Positions 14,481-46,634 of a stretch of DNA of 64,000 bases are shown piece by piece; positions within the stretch are counted from its first letter, which is position 1, and each line of letters begins with the position of its first letter. Location of the stretch: the NCBI GenBank assembly GCA_030280995.1, contig JASXTE010000005.1:33865501-33929500 (forward strand), in the 5' to 3' direction. Below the pieces are notes generated by a model. It was not told the origin of the DNA, searched no databases, and saw only the letters and a program-made list of their open reading frames with translations. The stretch comes from Hemileia vastatrix (taxonomy: Eukaryota; Basidiomycota; Pucciniomycetes; Pucciniales; Zaghouaniaceae). Both the position numbers and the translations under genes were made by a program.

Positions 14481-14520
14481 CACCACAGAAAATTTGGGGG
14501 GGTATTGCTAGCAATACCCC
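14481..14520. repeat. Left terminal inverted repeat of the giant CACTA element
   Basis: It begins CACCACAGAAAATTT, then GGGGGGG, then TATTGCTAGCAATACCCC. Together with the preceding Gs the last part forms a 22-bp perfect palindrome. It differs from the right TIR only at positions 13-14. Confidence 0.9.
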
Positions 14521-15480
14521 TCATTTAAAAATGTTGGGAAGTGGTTGGAAAGCTGTTGGAAGGCTGTTGGGAGTTCATTGTGAAACCAGATTTAAGTTAA
14601 TTGGACAAAGATTTGGTAATCAGTTAGACCTAGGTTCAACCAAACTCAATCACAGGTTTCTTGGAGCTTGGTGATTACTTTGATTTTGAGCTGAGCACAG
14701 ATTGAGCAAAGCTTGAACATATCACTTAACATATCATAATATTCACTTTCCCATCTTGTGGAAAGCAAAATTTGATATTCGTTCTAAGAATATCTACATA
14801 TATTTTCTTGCCAAGTTGGTAACAGAAGGTTAAACTGTAGTATCTCAATTATTACACTAGACTACATAGATATTTGATAAAACATACAATTCAAATCAAT
14901 TTTAATATTATTGAGATCACCATAAGTGTCTTTCCAAAGACTTACAAAAAGTATGTTAGTATCAAGACATCGTTCTAGGTAGTAGTTTCAATTTGGATTT
15001 TGAACTGACATCTAAAGCATTTTACTATTAGACAGAAACATAAATAAATGTAATAAGAGTGAAATTATTCTATTTTGTGATTATAATGTAACAATAAAGC
15101 ACATTTTTATTGAGAAAATTTTTCTTCCTCCACAAACCAAAATTTACTCTATAGGCTCAAGATTTATTTTTAAGCCATATTATTCATTTCAGTTATCATT
15201 GATTTACTTCCAATATTTATTAAAAAGATAATAATAATACATGTGAAAGAATTATGAGCTTAGCATAGCATATGCTAAAAAGTTATTTTGTCGTTTTATT
15301 CAAAACTGATTCTTCATTTTTTGCTTCAATTCATCTTTTAACAACCACTATCTTCAGATACTATTCTTACTTAATATGTCAAGTCTCAGATGTGTTGGAC
15401 ATTTCTCAATAACAATCGATCAAATTTATATGAATGTAATTTGAAGATTTCAAAACTCACCGACCCCCACGATTTTACAG
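14521..15480. other. Left subterminal region of the giant element; possible first helicase exon
   Basis: The first 60 bases hold a short GGAAGCTGTTGG-like repeat (around 14535-14575). The rest is AT-rich. Conserved helicase coding starts after the TTTTACAG acceptor at 15480, so a first coding exon must lie somewhere here, but I cannot place it. Confidence 0.35.
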
Positions 15481-17805
15481 CAAGGCCATTCGAATGTTCA
15501 TATTTTTGGACTATTTGAAGAAAGAAAACCAACCCTTGTCGGTAATCTTTCTCAAGTGCAGAGTCAGCACATTGGACCACTATTGGGTGACATTGGCTCT
15601 GGATCTCACCATTTAAACCAAAGAAGTGCCTTGAATCCTTTGAAGCCTTTCTATTTTCATGCTTACTTGGTTCCAGTTTTTGGTAATCAGTATCAACTTT
15701 GGGGATGCCTCTTTTCTTCAAGTACACTAATAAGTCTTGCTAAAGAAGCATTTTCTTCTGCACAAATCGATTTATGTCCAATCCTGAACTACGACTCCAC
15801 TATCTTTTTTAATATCCCGCATGTAATTTTTGAAGGCTCTTTCCAAATATCTCAGAGTACTCAAGATTGGAAAGCTGATCAACTTATCCGAGGAATCAAA
15901 ACAGTTCTCAAAACACATCAACTTCAAGCAATAAATTTTATGATTGACAATGAAAGAATGTTAAAGGAAAAGTTGGATATCATGTGGAGGCACCAGGACA
16001 ACAATTGGCTTAGAACTGGATTCGATGACTATAAAGATCAGTTTCCTAACAATCAATTAACGCCTGAAGGAAACGGGTCAATACTTGCTGATGATATGGG
16101 TTTGGGAAAGACACTTTCAACTCTTTCTCTTATAAGTGCAACTCAAGGTGAAGCAAGACAATTCCAGGTATCAGAAAATCAAGAAGGTATTAATCGGAGT
16201 TCAGCCACACTGATTATATGCCCCCTGGCAACACTATCGAATTGGATCAATGAAATAAGTGTGCACTTTGAAGATAATGCGCTTCCTTTCAAGGTTCTTT
16301 ATGGGAAGGATTGTCAAAATACTAATGTCAATGAGCTACAGGACACTGCTATTGTTTTAAGGACCTATGAAATAGCTAGCCCAACGATGTCAAAAAACTC
16401 AAAGCCAAAAAAAGATACCGGTGACTCAAATGCTCTTTTGGTATAGAGTTGTTTTAGATGAAGCTCAGTTAGTGCCCATTTCTATATCTAAAACTTAAAA
16501 CTTAATTTTTATAATCAATTTTTATAAATATTCTTTTAGTTACATTAAAAATCCTTACTCGCAGAGGGCTCAAACAATATTTGACTTGGAATCCCAACAC
16601 CCACTATGCTTGACTGGAACTCCACTTCAGAACAGGCCCACTGACCTTCAAAGTCTCATATTTTTTCTTAGAATCGAAAAGTGGCAAGAAGACTGGTTAT
16701 TGAAGAATTTCCTTTTTCCAGGTTTGCAAAAAGGAAAGGCTAATTCTATTAAATCAATCAATCACTTAATGAAAGTCATAAGCCTACGTAGAACAAAGGA
16801 TGCAATTTTGTCTCTTCGAAAAAAGATTCAAAGGGGGATATTGGTTCAATTAGCAGAGCCATGGAGGTCTAAACTTGATGTGCTTCAAGAAGGATTCACT
16901 GAGCGATATGGGCCCTCCAGAAGCACTGACTTCCCTTGGGACTCATCTGAGTTTCTAAGAGAGCTGATGATTTTAAGAAAATTCTGCAACCATCCAATCT
17001 ACAAAAATCTGGATGAAACTCCAACTTTTGATTTCACCTGGCAGCATTCCACAAAGATTTGTCATCTTATAGGCCACTTAAAAAACTTTTTGTCTGGTGA
17101 AAGGGATATAAATTTTCCAAAAGCTGTTATATTCTCCAACTTTGCAGACTTTTTGCAGATGTAAGTGATTCTATAATGAATTGTTTTACAAAATTGTGTT
17201 GGCTTATTAAAAACAATTTTCTAATATTTCAAAATAGAAAAAAAATGGCTTTAGATGACCACAATATTAGGTATACCCAGCTTACGGGTGAACTCAGCAG
17301 GACAAAGCGAGACAAAAATATGCATGAATTCCATTTTAATAAAAATTGCCAAGTTTTGGTTGGAACGATTCAGGCTGCAGGAGTAGGTATAGATCTCAGG
17401 TGTGCTCAAAATGTATATATAATGGTGAGATCAATGTCTTTTATTTCATATTAAGAACAAAAATATTAAATTTTTTATATGTTCAATGTTGAAATAGGAG
17501 CCAAATTGGAATCCAGCTGTTGAGCAACAGGCTGTTGATCAGCTGTATAGAATGGGGCAGCAAAATGAAGTAAATGTTTTGAATTATTTTGTAAAAGGAA
17601 GTATAGAATTCAGCATGTATAAGATTCAAAGGAAAAAAATGGAGCTAACAATGTAAGCCAAATTTCATTTCTATAAATTTTAATGATAATAGTAATCATT
17701 AAAATTATGTTTTTGTTTTCAAGGCTAAGTGTCCCAAACAGTGGAAATGAGGAGTATGAGTGTGCAAACCTATTATTAAGGGAGTTTGTCAATCACTCAC
17801 ATTAG
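15481..17805 (+). pseudogene. SNF2-family (Rad5/Rad16-like) DNA-dependent ATPase, one frameshift
   Basis: Helicase motifs occur in order: DDMGLGKT (motif I, about 16092), LIICPLATLSNW (Ia), VVLDEAHYIKN (II, formed across the 16468-16539 intron), LTGTPLQN (III), QAAGVGIDL (V) and EQQAVDQLYRMGQ (VI). Visible exons are 15481-16467, 16540-17160, 17238-17424, 17498-17652 and 17724-17805. Introns are 71-77 nt and phase-consistent. The frame shifts by one base at about 16430-16439, just before FWYRVVLDEAH, and would truncate the protein before motif II, so this copy is probably non-functional unless the shift is a sequencing error. The N-terminal exon is not found. Family role: ATP-driven remodelling or translocation on DNA. 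It ends tail-to-tail with gene A, overlapping by 17 bp. Confidence 0.8.
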
Positions 17806-18910
17806 AGGAAGAAAGAATTTCAAGGAGAGCAGGTAAATTTATGGGATTTTGAGGATTTAAAAGTCTGAGTTGTTGAGGATTTAGAGATGCAAGATATAAG
17901 GGAGAATAACAGTCATTTGGCAAACCCCGGGGGACATGAGAAGGATTAAGGTTAGGGGATAATGTTGAAACCAAACTGATTCTTTTGTACAAGGCCAAGT
18001 CCTTTAGCACACTTCCAGAGTAGGTTGAATTATCTCGAATATCAAAGTGTTGTTGGTCAAGATATTGTGCAACTTTAGAAAAATCTTCAGACCTCCATTG
18101 CATTAAGATACGTCTTAACGATCCATCATTATCAATTTCGGTGTCTGAACAACACTTGATGTTTGTGAAAAGGTTGTGATAAGTTTCACAATGTGGAAGT
18201 TGTTTAAGAAGTTTAGTTCGGTTAACTGAATTCTAAGAATCTTTGTTATTTGAAATAAAGGTCATAAATAAAAACGGTTGAAAAAAAAGGGATTTTCATA
18301 CTTTTTTTTTTATTCTATATTTATGCTTTCTCACTTTGATTATTTCTTGAGAGCTATGAGAATCCTTCCCAAGTCTTAATCTATCAGCATGACCTAAAAA
18401 CAAACGGTGAAGAACTCCTATTTGATTTGAGAAGCTAATTTGAGTTGAGTCAATTGGATATGCAATCAAATTATTGGTTTTTAAGGCATTGTCCCAGTGT
18501 TTAATGAGAATATTTACCAAGACCTGGTTCCATTTGTCAAACCAATCTAGGTTCCAAGCGAAAGTTGATCCTGGGAAACCACACATGCGAAGGTGCTCAA
18601 TAAAAGATTCACGGAAAATTGGTGGAAACTTTTCCGAAACCGCTGAATTTGATTCTGGATGAGGTAGTTCAAAGGCAATGTTGCAAGAATTCATGTCGAA
18701 TGATGAAAATCTGTCTAATTGCTCTTCAGTAGGGTTTTGTTTCCATCCATTTGATTCTGGTGACATATCCAAAAGTGAACGACAAAAATTGTGTATAGAT
18801 CTACAAAAGTGAGAATTGAATGGAGGCAAAGTCTCATTAAAAATTCTATTAAGTGTTCTTGTGTTTGTGGGCAGGTTTCCATGAGGAAAGTAAGAGCTAC
18901 TAGGGTTCAT
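17789..18910 (-). CDS. Gene A: uncharacterised protein, paralogue of gene B
   Basis: I do not recognise a domain. The exons are 18910-18302 and 18232-17789 with a 69-nt intron, giving 350 residues with no lesion. It resembles gene B in three stretches: FAWNLDWFDKWNQVL against B's FVFDWTCHDFSESTWNQVM, the intron-flanking KYRIKKK against RYRTK, and HVPRGLPNDCYSPLYLASL against NVPKYLPKNCYSATFLQGL near the C-terminus. The intron sits at the same place in both proteins. Gene A lacks the Pro-rich N-terminus of gene B. Its location within the transposon and the retained open frame suggest a function in the element's life cycle, for example an accessory DNA-binding protein, but this is inference. Confidence 0.65.
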
Positions 18911-18981
18911 AAATAATTAGATTAAGAAAGTGTTCAATTAAATTAAACAAAGAGGAAGGATAAATTGTTGAGCTCCAAAAC

Positions 18982-20158
18982 TGTCAGCCTAAATATCCTT
19001 AGGACTGAGTATTTCTTATGCTTAAAATAAGATAACCTTAACTAGATTAAGCTTATATCTTAAAAATAAGGTTAAAATAATAATATATATTATTTTATTA
19101 TATATATATATAATTATTATTCTATTATATAATTTATAATAGTTTAAATAGCTTATCCATGGCCTAATAATACTTATTAAGGTGTTAATGGAGTCATAAT
19201 ATACTTATCTTAAGTGATATGAAGTAATTATTGACATACATAAGCTTATATGTATACATAAATCTCATATTCAGTGAAATATGCAGTATATTATGTATAT
19301 TTAGGTATATAAGTGGGTTTTAGCCCCTTAATAGCCTATAAACTTTGTTTTTCTGCTTATTTTAGGTCATATGGAAGAAATCAGTGGACTCACAACGCCT
19401 ACAGAAGCATAGACACCTATATCAGGCGCATACACCCAGTTTGGACAACTAAAATTACTTCCTTGGATGGTTATTCCCGGATTTATGGGTTGGAAAGATG
19501 TTTTTGGGTTAATGTGGATGCTTGGGGATGTTATTGGGGGCTTGGACATTTTATTTGTTTCCTTTATATGCATTTAGTTTCATTAAATCTCTTTTTGATC
19601 CTTTATTTTACCTGTTTCTTTATGGTATCCGCTTTTATCTGGGATTTCCATTTATGGTATGACTCTGTGTTATTATTAATAGTGATGGAGGGTCCTTACT
19701 GGAGGTCTGGGTGTTGAAACTGCTTGAAGTGGACGCCATGGGGAGTTGATGGGCCCTCACAGTGCTGTAATTGCCGGGGATAGCAGTGACATCATCTGGA
19801 TTGAAGGTCTGTGCACTCCAGTGGATTTGGGTATAAGTAAGGAGGGATTTTGACGGTTTATTATCATCATTCAATTACTACACTTCAAACAAACACTACA
19901 CTACAATTATTAACATTCAGAAATATATTATAAAGCCCTTATAAATTGATATTATCTTTATAAAAGCTATAACTATATTTTATTCTTCTATTTTCCACCA
20001 CTAGCACGCATTTAAATCCAAGTATTGTGAGTTTAATTTGAGTATAACTATTCTATTAGTCTTCCCCTGAGGTTTAATCACTAAATCATTTATTAATAAG
20101 TAGTAGGACCATAAAATAACACTATTATATCATACTTATATACTAGACTGTACTGACA
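18982..20158. mobile_element. Solo LTR of the Retro-A family
   Basis: It runs from TGTCAGCCTAAATATCC to TGTACTGACA with perfect TGTCAG/CTGACA ends and a 5-bp target duplication AAAAC at 18977-18981 and 20159-20163. It is collinear with the LTR at 10216-11410. No internal coding sequence remains. It inserted between gene A and tnp2 after the giant element had formed. Confidence 0.9.
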
Positions 20159-20163
20159 AAAAC

Positions 20164-21166: not shown

Positions 21167-24100
21167 ATGCCTCCATTTTTTCATGTATGTCAATGTCAAG
21201 ATCTTGGATGTGTCAATAGAAAGTATCAAACTTCTTCTGGGTCCTTTGAAGTTGGTATGGCTTTCAAAAGCTCTAATTCTTATGCAAAACACCAAGAGGA
21301 AAGAAATAGGAAGGCCCAGATGGTTATTTCTTCCAACAATCCACTTAACATTGGAAGTTCCCGCTCCACAGAAACAATAAGCTGTATATCTATAGTTCAA
21401 TGTGAGAATTAAAGTCTTTATGATGTTTCAATGATTTATTACATAGGGGCAGTTGCTATTGGGGGCAGAAGTATCTTCAACAGTCTCTAGAAACTCAAAT
21501 CTTGGGGAACGGTATAGCCAAATAATTATGTGGCAGGCAGCAAAGCTTTCTCTTATTCATCATTTGAGCAAAGAAGGTTGTACTCAATTTTTGGATGAAG
21601 AAATTAAGAAGCTCAAACTTCTAGGTGATAGTGGAATACTGGATTCTGATAGCATTGTCCGCCTGGTCCCACGCTCGATAGATACAGTTTTTAGTCGATT
21701 AAAGCTCAATCAATCATTTTTCACTAAAACATGCTGTCCTAAATGCTTTGCTCTTTATGAGTATAACTCTGAATCTCAACCATCTATACTATGTTGCAAT
21801 CAACCGTTTCTTTCATAATCAAAGCGCTATTTAAAAATGTTTGGAGCAGGAAAAATTGCAGTTAAATGTGATGAAAGGCTGTATTTGATGGAGGAACATC
21901 AAGAACATGTAAAATACTTATCTCTTAAAACATTTCATCACCATTCTTTTATTGACTGGCTTAAGGAAAAGATCAAACTGTTCAAATTTGAGCTTCTGAT
22001 TGAGAAGAAAACCCCTGTGGCAGAACGTGTAGAGTGTGATTTGATGAAGGATGTTTGTGATGGTTCAATTTGGAAAAACTTTCCCATAACCACTCCAGCT
22101 CTTGATAGCAATGATGATGAATATACAATAACTTCAGGCAACTTAATGTTTACTTTATATGTCGACTGGTTTAGGCCTGGTGGCAATAGGATTGGAGGTC
22201 ATCAGAAGTCTGTAGGCAATATTATGATGGTGTGTATGAACCTACCTCAAGAAGATAGATACAAAATGGAAAATCTTTTTTTGTATTCTATTATACCCGG
22301 ACCAACAGAACCCACAAGTGAACAGCTTAATCACCTTCTAAAACCACTGGTTAATGATCTACAAACTCTATGGGATGGTATATTGATTGAAAAGACACAT
22401 CTTTATCCACGAGGCCGGAAATTAAGAGTTGCATTGTTCTCTTTGATAGGTGACATTCCTGCAATACAAAAATTGGCTGGCTTTTCGAGTCACTCTGCAA
22501 AAATGTTCTGCTCTTTCTGTAATATCTCTAAAAATGAAATTAGTGAAAAGAATGTGGGAAATTTTTCATTACGGAATCATGAGGATCATATGTGCTGGGA
22601 AACAAAGTGGAAAAATTCTAAGTCACATTGGGAGCGTGTATCAATTGTTCAAAATCATGGGGTACAATGGAGTGAGCTGAATAACCTTGAATATTGGAGT
22701 CCAACTGAATATTGCTCAATTGATGTTATGCATTCACATATGCTTGGCAACCTAAAAGATCACAGTCTAAGCTATTTTCAAATCCAAAATGCAGCAAAAG
22801 ATCTAGAAAGAAAGCTGGAAAAGGATAAAAATTGGCATGTAAGAGAAGAAGATGATGATTTCTTTTCTGATACTTCACTGCACAAACATTCAAAAAAATG
22901 TAGAAGTAGCTTAAGCACCACGAATAATGATGATGATGATACAGGACACACGAGACAGCACAAGCGGCAAAGACGTACGAGTTCAAGACAGTCATCAAGT
23001 CATCATGGACTAGATAATGAAGGATTGGGAACAAATCGATCAAGAAGCCAGATTAGGTCATCCAGCTCCAAATTTATTCCTCCATATAGCGATGTGGCCT
23101 CAATACAGTCTCACAGCAGTGACAGTAGGAATTCATTGTATAACTTAAGGCAAAGAAGCATTAGCATATCACAGAGTGAAGGATCTCACTCATCAAATGA
23201 GACAGCTAGAGATGAAGAAAATAAAAGGAAAGGTAAGGAGAAAGAAAATGAAGGTAGTAGTAATCCACGAATCACAGCAGCAGAGCTACAGGTTGTATGG
23301 AAGATGATTGATCAAGTAAGAAGACCTTCCTGGCTAACACGAGTTCCAAAATCAGTAGGATCTAAAAAGGCAGGATCCCTCAAGGCAGCAGAATGGCACA
23401 TGCTGTATACTCTCTACTTCCCTTTGTCACTTATACCCCTTTGGTTTGAAAAATTTAAAGAATCTGAATCTTCAGCTTCCTCAGCTGATAAACCAAGAGA
23501 ATATTATCTTCTCAAGTCACTTGTAACATTATGCTCAATCACCAATTTTTTGACATTAAAAATATACAGACTAATGAGCTTAAAGATCTAGATCAATTTC
23601 TGTTAGAGTATTGTGAGTGCCTTGAAGAGGGTTGGAAGAATATTAATGCAAAGCCAAATCTGCATATCACTCAACATTATCCTGAAATGATAAAGCGTCT
23701 TGGTCCACCATCAGGTACAGCTACTTGGTCTGGAGAGCGGGTGAATCATATATTATCTGAAATTCCAAACAATCACCATCCACGTATGTAATGTTTGTAA
23801 GCAATGATTTAAAAACTCAGCTGTGCTAATTTATTAATATTTACCACAGGAGAGATACCGCTAAAAATGCTCAAACATTGGTATCGGAAGTCTAGGGTAT
23901 TAGATCTTGGTGAAGCTTAAGATAATGATCAATGTGAGACTAAAAAAATCCATATTGATCTTGATAAACAAAACAAATGGATCCATCTAAGTATGGCATT
24001 ATTTACTAAATGGGTAAGGGCACGAATGGGAAAAGAAACTTCAAGACGGGCTTTGACACCATCGGAGAAAAGTGGGGATCGGGTAGTTGAAAATGTAGCA

Positions 24101-24480
24101 AGAATATTGATACATGGAAAGAGGTTTACTAGTTACCATTGACACATTGCTAATTCAACAATTGAATTCTACTATGGAAAAGATAGCCAGTTTGGGCAAA
24201 TTGATGATCTTTTCAGATCAAAGGAAGAGATTGATCAAATATATTTAATAGTAAGTCCTTTCAAAGAGCTCCGTCCAGAAGAAACATCAAAGGATCCCTA
24301 TGAGCTTTTCCCACAAGTGCATTGTTGGTTAGTAAGAGTAGCCAAAGCAACTCAAATTGTGATTAAGAAAGATGCAATAATTGGACATGCAGCTACTGTC
24401 GAGCACAAAAAAGGAATGTTTGGAATCAAAGACGAGGTTGTCACTGCCATTGGACTGCAGACAGTAGTGAGTGAAAAAAT
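21167..24480 (+). pseudogene. tnp2: Tnp2-type (CACTA) transposase, degenerate
   Basis: The Transposase_21/Tnp2 family cleaves and joins CACTA ends. The N-terminal exon has a small Cys/His cluster (HVCQCQDLGC). The core has LYVDWFRPGGNRIGGHQ, then GDIPAIQKLAGFSSHSAK followed by FCSFC (about 22450-22530), then YCSIDVMHSHMLGNLKDH, which are the landmarks of basidiomycete Tnp2 proteins. A low-complexity charged linker (about 22850-23260) interrupts the core. The C-terminal part includes TATWSGERVNHIL and the phase-consistent intron 23784-23849. Lesions: in-frame TAA at 21816, a frameshift at about 23540-23570, TAA at about 23918 and TGA at about 24142. This copy is therefore unlikely to make active transposase. 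The C-terminal end after about 24480 is unclear. It lies inside the CACTA ends, as expected for the element's own transposase. Confidence 0.85.
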
Positions 24481-24544
24481 TAATCAAACTTATTTTCTGT
24501 TGACTAACATCTTTGTGTTAATTTGGGATTGGGGAAATTTGTAG

Positions 24545-24970
24545 GATTGGTGATATTTGTAAATGGTGAAAGAAATAATTCAATGCTCGATTAAAAAATG
24601 CAATGCATCCAACTTACCTTATCATAAATCGGTGAACAATTACTTTGGTTGCTTTTATTGCGAGAGAACCCATGCTTTCAATGAGTCATTTTTATCTTAA
24701 ATGTAAGAATGAAAGAAATAAAATCATGATAATGAGAAATATGATAAAATTTTTACTTAATGAATGATCGTCTTGCTCATTCATCTACTATAAATAGTTT
24801 GACCTTCCAACTTTAGCTGATAGCTATATATTATTCACTTTATTTTTCGACAAGAGAACATACACATTTACAAGACTATATACATAGTATCTTTTTTTAC
24901 TTTAGCTTTGATAGGTATAAATTTTAACAACTGATTATTTTTATTTTATTTTATTTTATTACAGTTCATT
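24545..24970. other. Spacer between tnp2 and gene B
   Basis: AT-rich with no gene seen. It ends in a TTTTATTTTATTTTATT tract immediately before the gene B start codon. Confidence 0.4.
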
Positions 24971-26630
24971 ATGGATGATAATTTTGAAGGGATGTCTGTT
25001 GACCCAACCGATTCTGATTGTTTTCTGCCTCAACATACTAATACTGGAAATACTCCTCCACCACCCTCTGCTGATCCACCTCCAGATGCATCTCAATCTG
25101 TACCACCTAATCCCAATCCAGGCCAAGAGTCTCATTCAGAACCGAGAAATTTTAATCCCAATCATCCTTCTGCTTCTGAAAGTGCTAATCAGCAAGCTGA
25201 TCAGCTAGGAAGAGATTGGGCTAGTGAAGTATTGAGGGAATTTTTTGGAGACCAATCATCATCTGCTCAGCCTAACCAAGGAGCAAGCACAAGTGGAGCA
25301 GGTAAGTCAAATTTGTAGTGTATTCTTTTATTGAAAAATAACCAATTTAATTAACTTATTTAAATTGTTAGTGAATCCCTCAATCATTATGGGTATCAGT
25401 GATTACCACAGACTCAATTCAGCAGAGTCTCATGAGCGAGAACGGGGGTTAAGGGCTGTAAGAGGCTTAGTTAGAAGGAATGATGTTCCCAGGAGCTCGG
25501 ACAGTCTAAATAGAAATATTTACCACTTTCTGAAGTATTGTCTTGGGGGACCAACACAAATATCAAAATATCCTGCGAGCCCAACACCTTTGGAGATTGA
25601 AAATTGGAAAGATTGGAGCCAATTCAAACTAAAAACCATTCAAACTGTCCTAACCCAAGTCCAATCTTCTAACCGTGCCAATTCTGCAGCTGATCGACAA
25701 TTTCTGATAACCAATTCTATAGCCTTCTTGCGATCCAAAATTCGACTACCCGAATTTTTTCCAGCACCTGAGCCTCGAGGACTAAAAGGAGGAGCACCGA
25801 TCCAACTTTCTGTCAAAAGAAACTTAGAGCGTGAATTGCAAGAAAAAGGTTTTCAGAAATTCGTGTTTGATTGGACTTGCCATGATTTTTCAGAATCAAC
25901 TTGGAATCAAGTCATGGGAAGCATAGTATGCGACCACTGTACCAGATGGCTCACCACCTTGAATACAATTGATCAGTCAAAGCTTCAGTTCACTCAATGT
26001 GTTATTGAGAAATGGGTAGTTAATAAGGGGAAGAAGATGATAAGGTTGTTTGGGCAAGAAGAGGAAAGGGTAGCAAGAGAAAAGATTGAAAAGAGGGCAA
26101 GGGCACAAGTAAAACGTTATCGGACCAAGGTAAGTTTTTTATTTTACTTTGCTTTTTGTTATTATGAAGCTGATTTAGTTGGAATTCAGATTGCTAGTGC
26201 ACGCTACAAGTTAGCAAGAGATCTCTGCAGTGATGTGCCAGGTTTTGTTGTGCTTTTTCATGATACTAGGTGCATCTCTGATATCGAGGAAGGCCCAGCA
26301 CCAGCCCCAACTGCACCTATCCGAGCTATTCCTGGATGGCGAAATCCTGAACTCAATGATTTGTTTAAAAAAATAGATAAGATGACAAAGGACTTAGCCC
26401 ATACACCAGCTCAAAAAAAATCAGCATTAAAAACATATTCACGGTCATCAGAAAGGACAGTTGCACAAAATGGTATATTCAATGTTCCCAAATACCTCCC
26501 CAAGAATTGCTATTCAGCAACATTTTTGCAAGGATTATCTGTGAATGAATGTGAGTCACTTGGGGTTGGAGCTGATATTGATCTGGTAAAGATTCGGGAA
26601 TCAATTAATAGAGCATCAACATCATCATAA
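24971..26630 (+). CDS. Gene B: uncharacterised 509-residue protein, paralogue of gene A
   Basis: The exons are 24971-25301, 25372-26129 and 26190-26630. Introns are 70 and 60 nt with matching phases, and the sum is 1530 nt with no lesion. The N-terminal 110 residues are acidic and rich in Pro, Ser and Gln. The rest contains a basic, helical segment with EERVAREKIEKRARAQVKRY and a C-terminal motif NVPKYLPKNCYSATFLQGL shared with gene A. No known catalytic signature is visible. An intact frame next to a decayed transposase is notable. It could be a TnpA-like accessory protein or an unrelated cargo gene; the sequence alone does not decide. Confidence 0.7.
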
Positions 26631-26845
26631 CTTAGGTATAACGGTGATCTTCTGTGTAATATAGCAATCTTATATTGAATTTTATGTATTCTGTTTCTTT
26701 TCAAAGCAGCTTGGTAAATGTTATAAAGTGATATTGAGATAGAGTAACATTTTATTTAAGAAAAACAAATAATGTATGAGATATAAAAATGTATTTTCAA
26801 CAAATTGATGGTCCATACCTCTTTATGTCACATTTATGTATCCAT

Positions 26846-28767
26846 ATTAATTTCAATCGAATTTAATGTTGACCAATACATAGTGAATACACGCTATGCC
26901 ACTTATACTTGCCAGGCATTGCTACCATTAAATATGCCAGTATCAAAAATTAATTTCGATCGAAATTAATGAGCATGATAATCATGAATTTCTGGAGTCA
27001 ACTGCTTATTTTTATGCATGGTGCCTTGCCAACATTAATTTCGATCGAAATTACTTTTGATACTGGCATATTGCATGGTGTCTATTCCTGGAAAGTGTAA
27101 GTGGCATAGTGTGTATTCATTACGTATTGGTCAACATTAATTTCAATAGAATTTAATATTGACATTTTCATATTGAACCCAAACCAGCAAACGACCCAAA
27201 AAATTCTTCATAAAACTGCTCATTAATTTCGATCGAAATTAGTGAGCACCATATACATATTGAATGGTAGTTATATCTGGTGTGTGTAAGTTGTAAAGCT
27301 TGTATTCAATGTTTATTGGTCAAAATTAATATTAATGTGTAAATGATATTTACATGCTCAATATGCATTGTAATGTGTTTACTTAAGAATAGAGTGCCCT
27401 ACTTTTCATCTTACATAAAAATGCTTGGTGGCATGTCAAATTCAATTTTTATTAAAATTAATGTTGACATGTTACCATGCATAACAGTAAGCAACTGACT
27501 GAATAAATTGATGATAATCATGAACCTTAATTTTGATCGAAATTAATGTTGCCAAGTGCAGATTGAAAAAAAGCTATGCCACTTACACTAGCCAGGCATA
27601 TCTACTATTTATAATGTATTGGTCAACATTAATTTTTATAGAAATTAATATGGATATGTAAATTTTATATTTACCCTCAACATGTATAGTAAATTTCAAT
27701 ACTTAAAAATACTTGCCGTCCTTTACATGTCATACAAAAAAGCATTATATCATTTCAACATTAATTTTGATCAAAATTAATGTTGGCATGCCATTATGCA
27801 TTGAAACAACTAACTGACTGAAAAAGTTCATGATCAAAATGCTCATTAATTTTGATCAAAATTAATGTTGACCAATACATATTGAATATAAGTAATCTCT
27901 GCTTACTCAGACCAGATATAACTACCATTCAATATGTATATGGTCAGCCTTAATTTCGATCGAAATTAATGGGAAGTTTTATGAAGAATCTTCTGGGTTG
28001 TTTTCTGGCTTGGGTTCAATATGCAAATGTCAACATTAAATTCGATCGAAATTAATGTTGACCAATACATAATGAATACACACTATGCCACTTACACTTT
28101 CCAGGCATATATACATGCAATATGCCAGTATCAAAAGTAATTTCGATCGAAATTAATGTTGGCAAGGCACCATGCATAAAAATAAGCAGTTGACTCCAGA
28201 AATTCATGATTATCATGCTCATTAATTTCGATCAAAATTAATTTTTGATACTGGCATATTTAATGGTAGCTATGCCTGGCAAGTGTAAGTGGCATAGCAT
28301 GTATTCATTATGTATTAGTCAACATTTATTTCGATTGAAATTAATATGGACATGGACTATGCATAAAATTCCTATAAGTATAGGTAAGCTAAGCAGTTAG
28401 ATAAACTGGTTTGATCAAGTACACCATATAAAAATTGATGTTTTAATGCCTTGTTTAATTTTGATCAAAATTAATTTTAAGCCATGCATGTTGAATTTTA
28501 TCTATGTCTGTGTAGTCCATGTGAAATGGCTTGTATTCAATATGCAGGGGTTTATATTAATTTTGATCAAAATTATGAGGTTCATTGCCTCATAAATTTG
28601 ATGGTTTCTGTCAGTGTTTCATGCATGGTGCCATCTGATACTTGTTGATTCCTATCAAAATTAATTTCAACACCAATATATTGAATACAAACCATGGCAC
28701 TTACAGTACTTGGTCATAGCTAAAATTCAATATGCTAGTCTCAAAATTAATTTCGATAGAAATTAAT
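26846..28767. repeat. Array of ~20 palindromes built on TTAATTTCGATCGAAATTAA
   Basis: Perfect or near-perfect copies occur at about 26949, 27034, 27222, 27526, 27760, 27844, 27950, 28034, 28138, 28221, 28454, 28554 and 28745. More degenerate ones lie at 26846, 27136, 27325, 27445, 27628, 28324 and 28650. Average spacing is about 100 bp. The spacers recur in both orientations (for example GGCATAGTGTGTATTCAT near 27105 against GAATACACACTATGCCAC near 28075, and TTTTGATACTGGCATATT against AATATGCCAGTATCAAAA), so the array is a mosaic of inverted modules joined at palindromes. No coding potential. Confidence 0.9.
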
Positions 28768-33293: not shown

Positions 33294-34766
33294 TTATATA
33301 TCTAGATTTTTTAGATTTGTCTTAACATTAGATAAATAATACTTTGCTGATTCTATTTCTTCCTCTATTAAGTCATCTCTTTTCAAAAAAACTCTCAAAG
33401 CACTAATCAAATATTCTAACCTAAATTTTTCGTTTTTAATTTCTAAGTATTCTGAAATATCAATATCAAAAACATTAAGCTTTTCTATAGCATGAAAAAG
33501 TCTAGTGCTGATTTGAATAGAAGAACCTATCCTAGTGAAGCCAGGAATTTCATGACATCTTGAGGTGAAATGCCTTAGTTGATTGGCAGGCCATAATGTC
33601 ACTGTTATTCCATTAGTTGCTTCAAAGTTGATTTTACTTCGAATTTCGGGAAACATAAGTTCTCCACCTATTTGTCGTGGTTGGGTCTTATCATACTTCA
33701 TATGAATGGTGTTTTTTTCTGTATCTTTCACCGCGCAATACGGGGGGCGGACTTGTTAGCAAGTCCGCAACCTTGGACTCAAATTCACCACAGATTGAAC
33801 ACACATTGAGCTATTGACAAAGGAACCATACAATCAGGGATGAACACCACTCAGCATAACAGTTTTTGTGGGTCTTCAAGTAGAGTTCAGTATGAGTTCA
33901 GTATGAGTTCAGTCTGAGTTCCATCTGAGTTCAGTCTGAGTTCAGGTTGGGGACTTGCTAGCAAGTCCACCCCCTATATTGCGTAGTGTTTAGGAAAAAA
34001 TATTCCTAAAGTATACTCACTTGCATCCTTATCGAGATGAACCTCATTAGAGAACCCATTACCATTCCCTCCAGATGTCCAAGTTAAATTACTAGCAAAC
34101 GGTACACCCTCTTCTTCACTAGAAACTTTTGAAAATCCAGGAATACCAAGTTTTGCGCAAAGATTAGTTGCCTCATTGTACTTTACATATGATATTTTTT
34201 TAAAAAAATATTCAAAGTACATTGCAATCCTCTTCATTCGTTTTTTATATTCATCCGTTTTTACAATATCATCAGTGTATTCATCTGCAAGGAAAAGCAT
34301 TCAAAAATTCAGTATTTAAATTAAAAAAAGTGATACTTACGAATATGTAAAGATTTCTTTCTATCTAAAATAAAGCCACCACCAAACATTTTTCCAAAAC
34401 CACCAGCTCTTTGATGATAACCATTATTTTTAATTTCATGTTTGCAGTAAGAAAGATCCTTAATGCATCGCACTGTAGCTTCTAACATATCTAGTTCTTT
34501 GAGCTCATGAATTTCAAAAGTCTGCACAAGAACATTAGGTATTAAGACACCTTTTGGTTTATAAATACTACATCCAGGAAAAAAATTGTAATAATTATTG
34601 CAATCTGTCATATTATTTGCATAAGATCGTGCATAGAAATGTGGCTTCTTCCCGTTTGTATCCATTCCAAGAGCGTTTACAAGTTTCATTCCAGTAGCAA
34701 TGTCTTTCGCCCACCTATTGTTAGAGTTCTTCCCTGGCCGTTTTTTTTTTTCAAATCGTTACTCAT
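33294..34766 (-). pseudogene. TET/JBP-like 2OG-Fe(II) dioxygenase gene, broken by a MITE
   Basis: This family oxidises the methyl group of 5-methylpyrimidines in DNA using iron and 2-oxoglutarate; rusts and other basidiomycetes have many copies. The minus-strand protein contains EVHLDKDASEYTLGIFF with the iron-binding HxD, then QIGGELMFPE, then ITVTLWPANQLRHFTSRC with the candidate distal His, then GFTRIGSSIQIS with the Arg expected to bind 2-oxoglutarate. A 56-nt intron lies at 34285-34340. The MITE at 33729-33988 sits in the exon between HxD and the distal His. It adds 263 bp including the duplication, so the uninterrupted gene was in frame across that point. A possible start ATG at 34766 is separated from the main frame by an 11-A run one base out of phase, so the true 5' end is uncertain. 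Assignment rests on motif order, not a search. Confidence 0.72.
33729..33988. mobile_element. CACTA MITE, 260 bp, in the TET/JBP-like coding exon
   Basis: Same family as the MITE at 30558, in opposite orientation. Ends are CACCGCGCAATACGGGGGG and CCCCCTATATTGCGTAGTG, each next to the GGACTTGYTAGCAAGTCC palindrome. The target duplication is TTT (33726-33728, 33989-33991). Interior direct repeats of the type GAGTTCAGTCT lie near the right end. Confidence 0.92.
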
Positions 34767-36511
34767 TGATGGTTCAATCCTAAGAGAATTCAATTTTGAT
34801 TTAAAATAGAAAAAAATCAAAAATTAGAAAATAGTAACATAATTTCAATTATCAGTCAATGATACCTTTAACTTTATCATATCTTCAATATTAGAAATAC
34901 AAAAGTTAGCATATCTACATATTAGTAAATTTATATACTTTTTCTTTATTTCAAATATTAAGAAAGCGTTTCAAAGGTATACTTTATTAAATTATACATA
35001 TAAAGAGTATAGCTTTATCCTGTATGCATTCAGCAAGTACGAGATTTGGCTCTACACTTAATATTAATAATATAATGAAAGTATAACTCCAATACACTAG
35101 TAATATTAAAAAATTTACGGAATTATGATATCCACTTATATAAAATGAAAAATCTTGCTCTGATCAATATATTGACTTAGAAAGTTATACTTCAATAAAT
35201 TATTAATTTTTAAATTGTAGCATTGTCCTGTATGCTTTCAGCAAGTATGAGACTTTGAAACAACTTAAAAATCAATAAATTAAAGGTAAAGTACAAACAA
35301 TCTAATTATTATTATGAAAAGCAAAACATTATCCTGTATGCTTTCAGCAAGTACGAGATGATGTTTTACTTTTCATATTAATAATATAATGGTTGAGAAA
35401 GTATTAAAGAAATATAGAAAAATGATAAGCAAAACATGAACTTACATGTCTATAAAATCTTCTTCCATTTGTAGCTGATTGATCAAAATTAATTTTAAAG
35501 TTTATTTTATAATCACTGTTTTAAAAAATAAATGGTTAGATAAATAAATTGAACATTTTTGATAAGGAATAAAGAAAAGTAAATTGACAAAGAAATAAAA
35601 AAACTTTAAGTTCACTGAAAAAGAATTATTTTATAATGAATCGAAAGGGTACAGTAAAAGATACCATAAAAATAAATTCAGAATTAGAATCATTAGATTA
35701 ACTTGTCAAAAGTGTAAAAAAGTGTAACAAACCAAAATGATATGAAATGCAATAGCAAGAAAAATTTGCTTACCGGTAATCAGATAAGTTCAAGAAAATA
35801 GTACCAATAATTCAAAATGATAAAGCAAAAATATGATTGATAATTTTTGAAAAAGGTAAGTGAGAAAGAGAAAGGAAAAATAAATTGGGTGGCAAACAGA
35901 TGTATATATCATGAATTTTCACTGATCACATTTTCAAAAAAATGCAGCTCTCCAAGTCATATGATAAACTTCATCTAAATTCCAAGAATGATATTGCCAA
36001 GGCACTGTACACAGCATGATCATTTTTTCCTATGCATATACTAATTCCAGCTAGAATTTACTTGGCTGCATGTTGTACAGATGCACATTTGTGGAAAACT
36101 GAATTTCACATCTAAAAAAAATTGACGCCACATAATTCTAGCTACCATGTTTCACGTAGCTAAAAAACATACACTCATCACATTTAAATTTACATTGCGC
36201 AAAAATTAATTCATTTTTGAATTTTTTTAAAGGAAACTATAATGTGCACCACCTATTTCTAAAATATGAACCTCCGCACCATATTAAATTGGGAGACTTT
36301 TAATTATGCAATTTTTTTGCCGTGACCTTTTTCCTGATCTTACTTGGTTCAAAATATTAAAACATGGCCAATGTTGATGAAAGAAACATTTGATTTTGTT
36401 TCTATGTGTAACAATGGAAGGCTGTTTCTTACTGGCTGAAGAGTGTTGTATACTTTATTTGAACAAATTTTTATTTTTTTATGTATTTTATTTAAAAATT
36501 TACTTTTTATT
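34767..36511. other. Upstream region of the TET/JBP-like gene with a three-copy repeat
   Basis: AT-rich with no convincing exon. Three copies of a 27-29-nt sequence with core CCTGTATGCNTTCAGCAAG followed by TAYGAGA lie at 35016-35045, 35226-35252 and 35331-35359. They stand out from the surrounding A/T-rich sequence. Confidence 0.5.
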
Positions 36512-37099
36512 GCAGCCAGATTTATACTGGCTGCTTTTTAGAAACCTTAATTTATGACCCAAGCCTTTGAAATTGGCTTGGGTCCCTTACATTGCAATTT
36601 AGTACTTCCAGCCAGGTTTCCCCTGGCTGGAAGTGTCTCTTTCAAGCAATTGAAGTCGCTAAAAGTGACTTCGATTTCTTGCTGTAATGTTTGCCACCCT
36701 CCCAGCTAATTTACTAGGCTGGGAGGTGGCCAAAGCAGTGTGCAACGCGCGTTGCTGCTGCAAGTAATGCGCGTTGCACAATCACCACCATATTTCATGC
36801 AGCTGATATCAAGTCAGCTGCATGAGATATGCGCAGCATGTGCAATGCGCGCTGCATGCAACACGCATTTCTTCTGCATGCAATGCGCATTACTTGCAGC
36901 AGTGATGCGTGTTGCATGTGCTGCATGCAGTGCATTGCACAGCCAGTTTTTTTCTGGCTGTGCAATGCACACAGAGAAACCAAAGTCCCTGCAAGGGACT
37001 TTGGTCTCTAAAATGGAAGTGACTTTCCCTACCAGGTGCAATCTGGTGGGAAAGTGAGAGAAACGTTAGACCGAAGTTGTTTGAAAGCAACTTCGGTCT
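36512..37099. repeat. Array of twelve consecutive, non-identical hairpins
   Basis: Back-to-back inverted repeats with different stems: 36512-36534 (8 bp), 36556-36584 (10), 36604-36634 (13), 36652-36672 (9, one mismatch), 36693-36730 (13, one bulge), 36739-36780 (12), 36789-36831 (18, one mismatch), 36855-36918 (14, with internal nested repeats), 36930-36970 (17 perfect, stem GTGCATTGCACAGCCAG, T7 loop), 36979-37005 (12, 3-nt loop), 37022-37055 (13, one bulge) and 37068-37099 (12). A further 9-bp hairpin lies at 37210-37233. The array is far richer in G+C than its surroundings. Open frames across it are artefacts of the repeats. Confidence 0.92.
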
Positions 37100-37233
37100 T
37101 AAAAACATTAAAAATCATAAAAAAAAATGAGAAATGTAGAAAAAAAAAAAAAATTAAAAATTAAAATGTGAGTATAAGAAAAAAAATAAGTTCTAGTGAT
37201 ACCAAAAATCCAAGCCAATTTCATTTGGCTTGG

Positions 37234-39390
37234 TTATTTAATAATTATTTTTTAATACATTAAATTTAAAATTCAAACACCATAAAATATATGAATTTTT
37301 TTTATATGAATATTATAAATTTAATCTACCTCTTTCTCATAATTATATTTATAATTTTGTTTTTTTAATTTTTGACATTTAAGTTTATTTTTTGGAAATA
37401 CAAAATTAAATTTTCAACTAAATTTTTTAGTAAGGTAAAATAAATTATAAATTTGACATTTTGTAATTGAATAATGAAAAAAATTTTAAATTTATTTAAA
37501 AAATATTTTTGTTAGAAGAATACCAATATTTTAAGGGTAGAAATATGGTGCAAATTGTAAGTAAAAAAAATTATATTTTTTTTTTGTGAGGGGTTATTTC
37601 TATTTTTAAAAATATTTTTCAAAAACATTCATTAAATACTGAATTAAATTACTTTTCAACTCAAATTTTTTGTAAAATAATTAAAAATGAAATAATAATA
37701 TTGTTATATTTGATATAAAATTTGAATTGGTAATATTAATGTCTCTTTAAGTAAATTTGAAAATCATTTAAAAAGACCATGTTGATAAGTACTTCATTTT
37801 TGATATACAATGGTTATATATATATCTTATATATATTTCTTGAGTGTTATCTTTATATACATTCAATAAAATTTGTAATATAAAATGCCATTTAATCATT
37901 AATTATTGTTCAACTTAGTTATAACAACTTCATATTTAATACCAGCCACTAGTATTTACTTTTTAATTTAAAACTCCAATATAATATGAGAGTATCCTTA
38001 TTTTGTCTGTATGTAATGAACAACAATAACAGACCATAAATGAGTGGGTAATTAATTACAATAAATAGTTGAAGAATAACCTATAAGAAATGATAAGTTT
38101 ATCAAAAAGAGTACATTAAAAAAATATACTTTTGAATTTTTTTTGATATAATTTGGGTAGTTGAATGAAAATTTAAATTATCAGACATCAAAATGGATAA
38201 AATCTAAAAGTGGTGTTTATATAATAAGCCTCATATAAAAAAAAGGATAAAAAATCTACTATGTAACTAAATTATTAAATATTAAGGTATTATTAAAATT
38301 ATTGAAAAACTTATTTTACAGTTATAATGAAATCTAAATGTGAAAATAATGGTGGGATAATAGTAAGACTATGTAGAAACACTTTAATTTATACATACTT
38401 TCAACTATGTTCAGATAAAAAAATTGTTAAAATTGTATAATAACATCTAGTTAATAGTGATGCAATTTTATTTAGATCAAGAATAAATTTTTCTGAGGAA
38501 AAACTAATTAAATTGAGATATGGCCATCTCCTTTCAAGAGATAGAATAATAATAAAAATTTAAAAAATTATAATAAGTATTCTTAATCACCATTTTTGAA
38601 AAGTCTCTAGTAAAATTCATTATAATATATCATTCATTTATTACATTATATGGAGTTTCATCTTGAAGTAGTGATGTGCAGCTTTGAACTTATGTTATGA
38701 AAAACAAAAAAGTTAAAAAATATATAGTTATACTAATGAAAAAGCCAAAAATAAAAATACTATTATAAATTAAAAAAATAAAACTACATAAATTTTATTC
38801 TGCTCTAATGATGGAAGGGTACTATGTATGAATTTCCACATGTTAAATCCAAACCTGCTTTAAGGCTAGTTTACAGGTAGAGCTATTAAGTTTCCTTAAA
38901 TTCTAAAAATAACTTATGCATTTTACTAATTATTTTTTTCTTGTTTTCTTTCCAAAGTTGTTAGAGTTGCTTAATTAATACTGTTATCTTGATTGTAAGA
39001 TATATAATTTTTTTTGAATACATGATTTATTGTTTCAAAAATTATATTATAAATTTAAATCATTTATTTCATTTTCTAAAGCTTCATTGTCAAAGACACA
39101 ACTCCATTTTCTATTACTTAAAAAATATATAAAATGTGATAGTAAAATTTGAGGAATTTTCTTTTTGAGAGGGTCAAACTATATTGTGAAGATTTTTATC
39201 TAGAAATTCTTGTACTCTAAAACCAAATAATTTTCTCCCTTAAGTAAGCCATTTCAAAAATATGAGAATAGAAACAAGAATATTAACTTATCTTATTTTT
39301 ATTTTCTTTACTGAAAGTTTTAGTTCAATCCCTTTTTTTATATGACATTAGTATAAAAACATGGTTAAATGCTACTATATAATTAATTTT

Positions 39391-39433
<43 letters not shown>

Positions 39434-41143
39434 TTAGAAGGTCATCCTTTTTTATTTACTTGAATAAATGGCTCAATTATAATACGCAACACTTATTAAT
39501 GTTTCCCAAACTCAATAACAAATTTCTCATATGAAATATTAGCTTCTAATATAAGAAGTTTATCTATAGATGATATTCAACATGTGATTTTACTTTTTAG
39601 ATTCAGCTAAAATTAAACAAAAGGAGAAATCATGCATATGTGTATAAATGGTAACCATATGTTACTTAGTGGATTGTGAAATTCACTCATCAGAATGGTT
39701 TAAGTATTAAAATAAATTGAGTTCATTATTTTCTAGTATTTGAAACTAATTAGGAAATTATTCTAAAAATATATTTTAATGTGTATCATGTTTAAAAAGT
39801 TGGAAATATGATTTTTGAAAATTGTGAGTTTCTTATGAGATACCAAGCTTTAGTTTACATTGTTTCAAGTAGAATAGAATTTTAGTATTAGAAATTGAAA
39901 GCAATGTACCATTATCAGATTTTAACTGTGTTCTACTTATAGAATGATTACATAACATTAAACATTATTTTAATCAAATAGGTTTAAAAGATATTTAGAA
40001 TTTCACCAAATTTCACCATTTATTAATCTTTGATTTGAAAACAAACTATGATGTACACTCACTAGAAATAAGCAATCCCAATTTTAACATAATTTATCAA
40101 TCCAAAAATAATGAGTCAATTAACATGAAAATATATATTATTTCAAAACCGAATCTCTAGATTTAAAATATGATGTTTTAATGAAAAATTATTACAAAAC
40201 TTTAATGCAATGAAGTCTCTTAAAAAATTCAAAAATAGAATATCAAAACAAGTAATTTCTGCAAAAAAAAACTACTAACTATTGTAGATAAAGCATAAAA
40301 ATAAGTCATATTTTTTAAAAAAATGATCTAACAATATTTATTTTTGTTAAAAAAATCAAAACATTGTTAAGTTTGCTTGTTATAATAATGTTAAAATCCA
40401 CTAAACATTATCTAAAGGTGGTAAAATATGTTAAAAATATGTTGAATTTTGTGAGATAAAAATCAAAAATTTTGTATCATTTCCTGTTGTGCTATGACTT
40501 TATTCCACCCTTTTTATCTGATTCTTCCAGTATTACTTTGCTATGATCACTAGTTTTCAAGTTAAAATTTACAAATGTTCATTATACTTGATAATATGAA
40601 AAATAACTCAAACTTTTATAACTACAAAATAAGATTTTGTAACTCCTTCTTTCAATCAATATTTGAAGAAATTTTTAGTTTATTTGAGTAATGATTTTAA
40701 GAATAACGAAAAATTTGAAATTCACAAGGAATTATTTCCAGAGACTATAATTATTTACTTCTGTAATGCATGAGCTACTTATCAATGATGTAAAACATCA
40801 GAAAAGTAAGTTATAGTTATAAATCTACAGATTATACTGTTTCTGGTATATATATCTTCAATAAATCTTTTAAACTTATCTTAGCCTTCATACCCCACAA
40901 TAAAAAATCATTATATTAAAAAAGGAAAAAATTCTATGATAATATCATAAAGAATGATAACCATGGATTAATATTCCATAAAAATGGTTAATAAAATTTT
41001 AAGAGAACCTAAATCAGTATTCTTTCATCAAAATATATCCTTTTTGTCTTTGTAATTTATTCCAAACAAATTTTTTGAAAGTTGAATCTATATATCTAAT
41101 GCCAAAACCACTATTAAGTTCCCTCTTAGACTTTTTAAGAAAT

Positions 41144-41174
<31 letters not shown>

Positions 41175-42876
41175 TATTTATCAAAAATTGAAATAAAGAA
41201 TAAAAACATAATTTTATTTACCTTTAATTATTTAAATATAGAGTATTTTCAGAATGCATTGTGGTTACTTGTGAAGGTAAGAAGATTTGAAGTTGGATTT
41301 ATGAGTTTTTAGAAGGGCAAATATTGTAAAATTCTTTCATAAATATTTATTTCATAGTTTCAAATGTTGAAATCTACTAACTAATGGGATTTAAAATTAT
41401 ATTGAGATTTAAAATCTGTTTTCTACTCAAGTAAAATAAAATAAAATGATGATATCAAAATTGAAATTAAGTTTAAACTTTTGATATTCTCTATCTTCAA
41501 TTTTATTGATAGTGCATCAAAAATTTAATAATATTTTTTTCCTTCATCACTTTTTGCATAAAAGATAGTTTTATCATTTTATGAATTAAAGATTGCTTAT
41601 ATAAATTTAACATCTATGTCAACTGTTTAGGACTATTAATCTATATAATAAACTTTTTAGAAGAAAAAATAACATCAATATATACTGAATTTGAAATTAT
41701 TCAATTTAAAATAGTTTACAGGTAGATAATGAAGGGTGATTTCATTTTTGAATATGAATTATAGAAGTCTTATTTTGTCAATTTTAATTCTTTTTGAGCT
41801 CAAATGTATCCACCGCAACTTATGTAAGAATAAAAATTATTTTTATTGAAATTTAAATGAGAAAGTATGCCTATTATTCAAAATCAAACTTGCTCTAATG
41901 GTGTTTTTCAATCATTATTTCCATTCATAACAATAAAAAACATTTCAATTTGCTGATGTTTTAGTTTTTGATATCCCCAAGTTTATATCTCAGGTGTACT
42001 ATTCACAAAATTATTAAAAATATAATTTTCGAAATACATGATAAACTTGAAAATGAGGGGGCATTAAATTTTTAAAAATGAATTCTAAATTCAGGATGGA
42101 TAGTATTTTTTCTATTTTCACAAATGAACAATTTTTTGTTTCAATTAATCCAGAAAGAAAATTTTGTTGTAAGCATATTATATTATATTTATTATGATTT
42201 TTAATACTATATTTTCAAGATTTGTGTTTAATATTTCCTGTGAAAGTTAATGTTAATGTGAATTTAAAGTAAGCTTGAAGAAATTTAATCAATAGGCATA
42301 TTGGATATTTAAAATAATATTTTGCTCCAATCTTGAATCATCCTGGGCTAAAAAATATCCCAAATAAGGTTTTTGTGGGTCAATTTGGATTTAAGTAGGA
42401 TTAAGTGAGGTTTAATAAAGGACAGATAAAAGGCTAAAATCATTACTAGTGACTTTTTTCTCAAAATAGTTATAAAATATGTATCATTCTGGAATCAAGC
42501 TTCAATAAAGTTGAATTGAAACAGAGATAATTTCTAGCAGCACAACACCATATTTACAAAGGTGTAAAATACCTCAAATATTACTCATAATATAGGAAGG
42601 CAAGGAATCTACAAAACTCACATTTCAAACAAGGATTTATATTTTGAATTTGAAATTGAGAAATGGAATATTATTTTCCAATTTAAATATCTATTAGTCA
42701 TTTTACCAAAAGTTTTCAGTAATCAGATTGAATTTTGATGGTATTTTGTTGTAGATTAATCATTTTGATGAGCCATTTACTCAAAATTACTGGTTTCGTT
42801 TCTAATATTCCATGTGAAATTCATTATGAATCATTTTGAAAGTGAATAGTTGACATATTGGATATGCAAAAGCTTA
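37234..42876. other. Gene-empty AT-rich right arm of the giant element
   Basis: About 5.6 kb without a usable open frame on either strand and without recognisable repeats. (TA)n microsatellites lie at about 39394-39426 and 41144-41174. It could be decayed filler or an unrecognised old insertion. Confidence 0.5.
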
Positions 42877-43079
42877 TGTTAGATCAAAGTGAGATCAAAG
42901 GGAGTTCAACTGATGATCAAATTAGGATTTTACAAGATCAAACGGTGATCAATGTAGGTTCATCTTGAGCTCAATTTGTGACAAATCTCTGACTAAATGT
43001 AAGACCAAACAATTTCCTACATGGTGATGATGTGTGCATAATTCAAGCATAGATTTGTGGCTCAACGGAGTTCAAGCAA
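42877..43079. repeat. Right subterminal repeats of the giant element
   Basis: GATCAA occurs at 42882, 42893, 42915, 42936 and 42947, and GAGTTCAA-type words at about 42902 and 43068. Clustered subterminal repeats next to the TIR are where CACTA accessory proteins (TnpA in En/Spm) bind. That role is inferred here. Confidence 0.5.
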
Positions 43080-43119
43080 GGGGTATTGCTAGCAATACCC
43101 CCCCATTTTTTCTGTGGTG
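43080..43119. repeat. Right terminal inverted repeat of the giant CACTA element
   Basis: It reads GGGGTATTGCTAGCAATA, then CCCCCCC, then ATTTTTTCTGTGGTG. It is the inverse of the left TIR with two mismatches and is followed by the AGT duplication. Confidence 0.9.
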
Positions 43120-46629: not shown

Positions 46630-46634
46630 AACAT

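Follow-up and report, generated by a model that had tools for sequence, protein, structure and literature searches.

The 64,000-bp stretch of the Hemileia vastatrix genome analysed here (hereafter the window; contig JASXTE010000005.1, positions 33,865,501 to 33,929,500 of the forward strand) contains at positions 14481-43119 a single insertion, which is a mobile, recently amplified CACTA transposon with integral cargo. The genes for an SNF2-family ATPase, a tnp2-type transposase, a TET/JBP-like oxygenase and three further proteins (genes B, D and E), together with an array of 17 dyads and a hairpin array, are integral to this element. We put the probability at about one half that it is a young, high-copy CACTA/EnSpm transposon of ~26.9 kb in which TET and SNF2 serve as an element-encoded anti-silencing set. 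The original prediction, made from the letters of the window, had proposed one CACTA-type transposon with at least five non-transposase genes, and its 40-bp ends, AGT duplication, PF02992 transposase and collinear copies elsewhere in the genome bear this out.

Ends, target site and insertion history

The element is bounded by 40-bp terminal inverted repeats (TIRs) at 14481-14520 (plus strand) and 43080-43119 (minus strand), which match at 38 of 40 positions and give it termini of the form CACCACAG..CTGTGGTG. A looser version of the TIR pattern, with up to two mismatches, occurs seven times in the window against 0.08 matches expected from shuffles. The TIRs are bordered by a target site duplication (TSD), AGT, read at 14478-14480 on the left and at 43120-43122 on the right. 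Inside each TIR lies a perfect 22-bp palindrome, GGGGTATTGCTAGCAATACCCC (14499-14520 and 43080-43101), a feature absent from the original prediction. The two miniature inverted-repeat transposable elements (MITEs) nested in the window copy carry GGACTTGCTAGCAAGTCC at the matching place of their TIRs, perfect in three of the four MITE ends. The core TTGCTAGCAA is common to the large element and both MITEs, and the arms differ on both sides of it with the dyad kept.

The flanks are two parts of one solo long terminal repeat (LTR), as had been predicted. The left part (13885-14480) begins with TGTCAC at 13885, the right part (43120-43311) ends with GTGACA at 43311, and the LTR has a TSD of its own, TCCAG, at 13880-13884 and 43312-43316. 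A related retroelement stretch, found in the window at 46612-45222 (minus strand), is a relative of the site in its unoccupied state. When the flanks were aligned to it separately, the alignment of the left flank ended with TCCAG and that of the right flank began with it, these five bases being the whole of the overlap between the two alignments. Because they overlap by TCCAG only, the order of events was the host retroelement, then the solo LTR, then the CACTA element and finally the later nested insertions. The host gene of the LTR had been named as gag; Pfam did not confirm this identity for the single open reading frame (ORF) scanned in the retroelement relative (45994-46515). A protease-like DTGA motif was read by eye in a frame at 11678-11911.

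Copies in the genome

Other copies of the TIRs, the search for which had been suggested as a check, were sought in the assembly of 747.6 Mb in 791 contigs. The exact 34-base TIR pattern was found 1,644 times (821 forward and 823 reverse), and the reversed 34-base pattern, used as a control, gave 0 matches. With the left-end 300 bp as the query, 1,162 first-look candidates were obtained, and the 40 that were scored, the window included, all showed 100% identity (rounded). End positions were examined for the first 100 of the 1,644 matches, 90 of which lie on contig C2 and, by list order, are complete there. Joining neighbouring left-type and right-type ends no more than 60 kb apart on this one contig gave 32 pairs (64 of the 90 ends) and left 26 ends unpaired. 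Nineteen of the 32 pairs span 26.89-27.23 kb, with extremes of 25.8 and 49.2 kb; the window copy without its nested pieces measures ~26.9 kb (26,919 bp by rough subtraction). About 820 elements of 27 kb would, by simple arithmetic, occupy ~3% of the genome, and fewer may be whole, as 64 of the 90 ends on C2 are paired.

Two other copies, on contigs C50 and C42, were read end to end and are 26,939 and 26,960 bp long. Both are collinear with the window copy at 98-99% identity and carry all of its cargo in the same order and orientation. The two TSD copies were equal in all six other copies tested, and the copies sit between different TSDs. A right end was found in 16 of 20 fetched regions; of the other four, three (L019-L021) were cut too far inward and L023 holds none. 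The start of the SNF2 gene is present in all seven other left-end loci. Among partial loci, and as far as each reaches, L019 contains gene D together with the dyads, L020 the dyads together with gene E, and L021 gene E together with TET. Locus L024 spans parts of two copies, and the zero values for D, dyads, E and TET obtained there are an artefact of this.

Five of the 16 right arms fetched (L012, L015, L024, L025 and L026) have an insertion at the same site, element position 38690, which partly resembles window positions 6518-6916. This shared insertion marks a subfamily that was still multiplying after it had gained the nested piece. A 1.86-kb non-autonomous relative lies outside the element at 5390-7252, with ends of the CACCACACAAT../..TGGTG type and the TSD TGA, and pieces of it also occur inside other copies of the large element.

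Nested insertions and damage in the window copy

Three later insertions lie within the window copy: an LTR at 18982-20158 (TSD AAAAC), which is not part of the element, and two CACTA MITEs of 0.26 kb each, whose termini begin with CACTACG. MITE 1 (30558-30818, plus strand; TSD TAT) was placed by eye between exons of gene E, although the automatic gene models put two tiny exons inside it. MITE 2 (33729-33988, minus strand; TSD AAA on that strand) lies in the TET coding region. The two full copies are without exactly these three pieces and retain one copy of the TSD at each site. Hence, of the predicted length of 28.6 kb, the single insertion from 14481 to 43119 stands, but the size is inflated by the LTR and the MITEs, the element proper being ~26.9 kb. 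Locus L019 bears a MITE at a site other than that of MITE 1. A scan for nested TIRs gave 98 matches against 0-4 in ten shuffles. The dyad array accounts for ~90 of them and the main element and the two MITEs for the others, the MITEs being caught as one pair rather than singly; the scan is thus poorly sensitive to MITE-like TIRs, and further nested pieces may exist.

Three genes of the window copy are broken. The transposase has an in-frame stop at 21816-21818 within a conserved stretch, SNF2 has an apparent frameshift between its Walker A and DEAH parts, and the TET coding region is split by MITE 2. In the C50 copy the SNF2, transposase and TET stretches are all open. The C42 copy likewise has open SNF2 and TET stretches, and the place of its transposase is spanned by a frame of 781 aa. 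Copies with open frames therefore exist, and among the three copies read the lesions belong to that of the window, where the SNF2 or the transposase lesion may reflect a sequencing error.

Genes of the element

The predicted gene content was recovered: an SNF2 gene (PF00176), a TET-like gene (PF20515) and three genes to which no accepted Pfam family could be assigned. Exon limits are approximate for SNF2, the transposase and gene E, and the automatic gene models are rough, the conserved transposase stretch with the stop having been spliced out and the SNF2 exons mis-joined.

The SNF2-family ATPase gene (15376-17653, plus strand) is one open frame in the two other copies, and the best likenesses of its gene model in the PDB are Rad54- and Rad5-type ATPases. 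The CACTA transposase (Transposase_21/tnp2; 21167-24553, plus strand) matches PF02992 with an E-value of 4.7e-16. A search with it yielded seven relatives, of which the top two have 33 and 36% identity, and its D, D, CxxC, HxxxH and E motifs (LYVDWF, GDIPA, CSFC, HITQH and GERVN) align with the homologues, the catalytic residues being judged by eye. One homologue (P0002) is labelled PF18759, which we take to be Plavaka, beside PF02992. In a set of viral contigs, none of 64 pattern-matched stretches encodes a relative of the transposase, and the TIR has no match there.

Gene B (17801-18910, minus strand) and gene D (24971-26630, plus strand) are distant paralogues (24% identity, E 5e-11). With gene D and gene E (29802-32495, plus strand) as queries, none of the 7,994 and 7,989 candidates scored, respectively, reached E <= 0.001. 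The AlphaFold2 model of gene D with pieces of gene B had a predicted local distance difference test score of 38.8 and was unusable for a fold search.

The TET/JBP-like 2-oxoglutarate-Fe(II) dioxygenase gene occupies 33294-34758 on the minus strand; with its upstream piece as the query, the best match in the PDB had an E-value of only 0.37. The TET exon gave 6,813 first-look candidates in the genome, of which the best 150 were scored; the 149 besides the window show 99% identity and have no stop in the exon. Of 13 TET loci on C2 among the matches listed, 11 lie inside left/right TIR pairs in the same orientation as in the window, eight of them at 17.38-17.41 kb from the left TIR, and the remaining two lie at 17.6 and 18.2 kb from a left TIR that has no partner. 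Together with the hundreds of other ends and with the cargo and gene order shared by the two full copies, these loci leave the prediction of one element unrefuted by the tests suggested with it. The right arm (34800-43079) is AT-rich (24% GC), has no recognised genes and is ~98% identical in other copies.

Dyad and hairpin arrays

Both predicted arrays are real. The dyad array (26841-28770), between genes D and E, consists of 17 near-palindromes of one type, ACATTAATTTCGATCGAAATTAATGT, with a spacing that is often 85 or ~102 bp. A count over 2 kb gave 18 dyad centres, compared to an average of 0.78 for 200 shuffles. Six of the 17 cores read CGATCG, four read TGATCA and seven have other or mixed forms, TGATCA being the product expected from CpG decay of CGATCG on both strands.

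The hairpin array (36512-37099) holds 11 non-overlapping perfect-stem hairpins in 610 bp, compared to 23 in the rest of the window, and its folding z-score is -30 as RNA and -18 as DNA (20 shuffles each). An Rfam scan gave 0 matches. All six other copies from which this region was cut contain the array (two of the six loci start within it), and its central block differs in unit number among copies. It is not universal: L027 is without window positions 36660-38807 and hence without most of the array, and L024 retains 69% of it. In L028 one hairpin has a TTT loop between stem arms that enclose AAA in the window and five other copies, which looks like an inversion of the loop; this hairpin perhaps extrudes in DNA.

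Relation to known elements

The termini described above, the 3-bp TSDs (AGT in the window; left and right copies equal in six of six other copies tested) and a tnp2-type DDE transposase bearing the C(2)C and H(3-4)H motifs defined in PMC12730594 place the element among CACTA/EnSpm transposons. Within 300 bp of the two ends the motif GYTCAA/TTGARC, picked post hoc, occurs four and five times against 0.6 expected at each. No TnpA-like protein was identified in the element.

Three other assignments were rejected. The element does not belong to the Kyakuja-Dileera-Zisupton (KDZ) group, as it has 3-bp TSDs and PF02992 is the sole transposase family among the ORFs and gene models scanned. Nor is it a Plavaka element, its termini being CACCA..TGGTG versus TGT..ACA or CATCA..TGATG as described for Plavaka in PMC12730594. 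A Starship was set aside too, as no tyrosine-recombinase captain family occurs among the ORFs and gene models scanned, a set that covers part of the small exons.

The closest published relatives are the TET-bearing EnSpm elements of rust fungi (Kojima 2025, PMC12730594). Like them, the present element has CAC..GTG ends, TSDs of 3 bp, a transposase of the EnSpm type in which the C(2)C and H(3-4)H motifs occur, and a TET/JBP-like gene (PF20515) inside the TIRs. It differs from them as they are presented in the main text of that paper, where a word search finds no SNF2 and neither lengths nor copy numbers of EnSpm elements nor arrays are mentioned. The KDZ elements of basidiomycetes likewise combine a TET/JBP gene with a DNA transposon, but have 8-bp TSDs where these are stated and another transposase (PMC12730594).

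Enlarged CACTA elements are known outside the fungi. The EnSpm elements of the red alga Chondrus crispus, cited in PMC6431247, have several ORFs (4-5) as well, but they are shorter (16-20 kb) and red algal, and the account given there does not mention TET or SNF2. Soybean Tgmt*, a 20.5-kb CACTA element (PMC2613891), shares with the present element its large size, a 3-bp TSD, a tnp2-type transposase and stem-loop-forming repeats, which in Tgmt* lie near the ends. Tgmt*, however, has one complex gene, and its stem-loops are subterminal repeats of one motif, whereas the present element has an internal array of unlike hairpins and an internal dyad array.

A limited literature search found no published case of SNF2 in a fungal EnSpm. 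The element had been put forward as possibly a previously undescribed class of large cargo-carrying CACTA elements in fungi. As far as these sources go, its size, SNF2 gene, two arrays and copy-number burst look new, but the TET-bearing EnSpm kind (PMC12730594) and multi-ORF EnSpm elements of 16-20 kb were already known.

CpG decay, selection and alternative explanations

Over 26,882 aligned bases, the window copy departs from the C50 copy at 285. Transitions affect 81 of 523 CpG sites (15.5%) compared to 0.25% for transitions elsewhere, a rate per site ~60 times that of other transitions. The copies are thus decaying at CpG, as expected if they are methylated; CpG depletion of transposable elements has been described in A. 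psidii (PMC8063080), which the present DNA resembles in low GC and in depletion of CpG.

Several observations weigh against TET and SNF2 as a working anti-silencing set. As the copies lose CpG in this way, lasting protection by TET is disfavoured. The ratio of nonsynonymous to synonymous substitution rates (dN/dS) between the window and C50 copies, pooled over the exons of six genes, is 1.03 when CpG changes are left out and 0.68 when they are included, and at this two-copy depth the cargo shows no clear sign of purifying selection. The roles proposed below for genes D and E are guesses, as no relatives of either were found among the candidates scored. Finally, the 149 loci with an open TET exon are the best-scoring ones and do not give the share of intact copies.

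There is an alternative that we consider possible, albeit rather unlikely: that the transposon family is as described, but TET, SNF2 and genes B, D and E are captured passengers without a role in transposition or silencing. The dN/dS of 1.03, the strong CpG decay in spite of TET and the three broken genes of the window copy would all fit passengers. However, with so young a burst, neutrality after insertion is expected whether or not the cargo has a role. Moreover, the two other full copies keep the same cargo in the same order and orientation with open SNF2, tnp2 and TET stretches, and at least 149 other loci, though the best-scoring ones, have an open TET exon.

A more specific proposal, that the element's own TET shields it from methylation-driven mutation, would be seen as an excess of CpG over the nearer flanks. 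Such a contrast does exist. In 2-kb bins the observed/expected ratio of CpG is 0.26-0.52 in the element over 14-38 kb and 0.00-0.17 (4-14 kb) and 0.02-0.21 (44-58 kb) in the flanks, and the nested LTR keeps eight CpG compared to one in each of two relatives outside the element. Yet towards both edges of the window (1-4 kb and 58-64 kb), where the element is absent, the ratios are as high or higher (0.36-0.79), and the right arm of the element over 38001-43079 (~22% GC over 38-42 kb), with ratios of 0.04-0.13, falls far below the rest of the element and has no more CpG than the nearer flanks. The youth of the insertion is the simplest reading of the contrast. The excess of CpG transitions between the copies outweighs it, and we have set this protection aside as improbable.

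The remaining alternative, that several transposons happen to be stacked between two TIRs which belong to one family but are otherwise unrelated, might be suggested by the three nested insertions of the window copy but is refuted by the two other copies that are collinear from end to end, the different TSDs between which copies lie and the mode of C2 spans at 26.9-27.2 kb.

Other features of the window

Copia-type pieces are found at 58615-61550 (minus strand), namely RVT_2 below its cut-off, gag_pre-integrs and SH3_retrovirus. The stretches 46630-47714 and 56630-57712, 10 kb apart, form a direct repeat of ~1.1 kb with 92.5% identity and are perhaps the LTRs of one element.

Proposed mechanism and implications

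If the element is indeed a young transposon with its own anti-silencing set, its life cycle might be as follows. The tnp2-type DDE transposase would act on the 40-bp TIRs by cut-and-paste, the TIR palindrome being a putative binding site for a dimer. One or more of the proteins B, D and E might have a DNA-binding role akin to that of the TnpA-like proteins of plant CACTA elements. Methylated copies would be oxidised and opened by the TET/JBP oxygenase and the SNF2 ATPase for long enough to permit transposition, with the dyad array as a candidate site of recruitment. After transposition the copies would become methylated and then lose CpG. An escape role for transposon TET genes has been proposed earlier (PMC12730594), and for TET and SNF2 here an anti-silencing role is our best guess.

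A bolder version is that a DNA-binding protein encoded by B, D or E recruits the SNF2 motor and the TET oxygenase to the CpG-bearing 17-dyad array, and that this enabled a 27-kb transposon to reach hundreds of copies in a burst, within a fungal genome that is subject to methylation. We regard it as doubtful and offer it tentatively. A parallel in the way of working exists in plants. VANDAL elements are Mutator-like transposons. The VANC proteins of Arabidopsis VANDAL act on noncoding repeats of their own elements (PMC10398659), which is likewise an element-encoded anti-silencing activity aimed at noncoding repeats, although the type of element and the protein are different and no oxygenase is involved. 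If true, targeted recruitment in H. vastatrix would be a chromatin-remodeller and oxygenase analogue of these plant VANC systems.

The element is a DNA transposon of ~27 kb that encodes a transposase and at least five other genes and whose ends occur ~1,640 times in this one genome. It thereby runs counter to the view, as expressed in PMC6431247, that DNA transposition falls strongly above ~6 kb of cargo. Its content of TET and SNF2 makes testable the open idea that fungal transposons carry TET genes in order to undo silencing. The CpG decay seen between copies already bounds the strength of any protection by TET, and a natural experiment is offered by the numerous copies of much the same age within a single genome, of which one or more have a broken TET gene.

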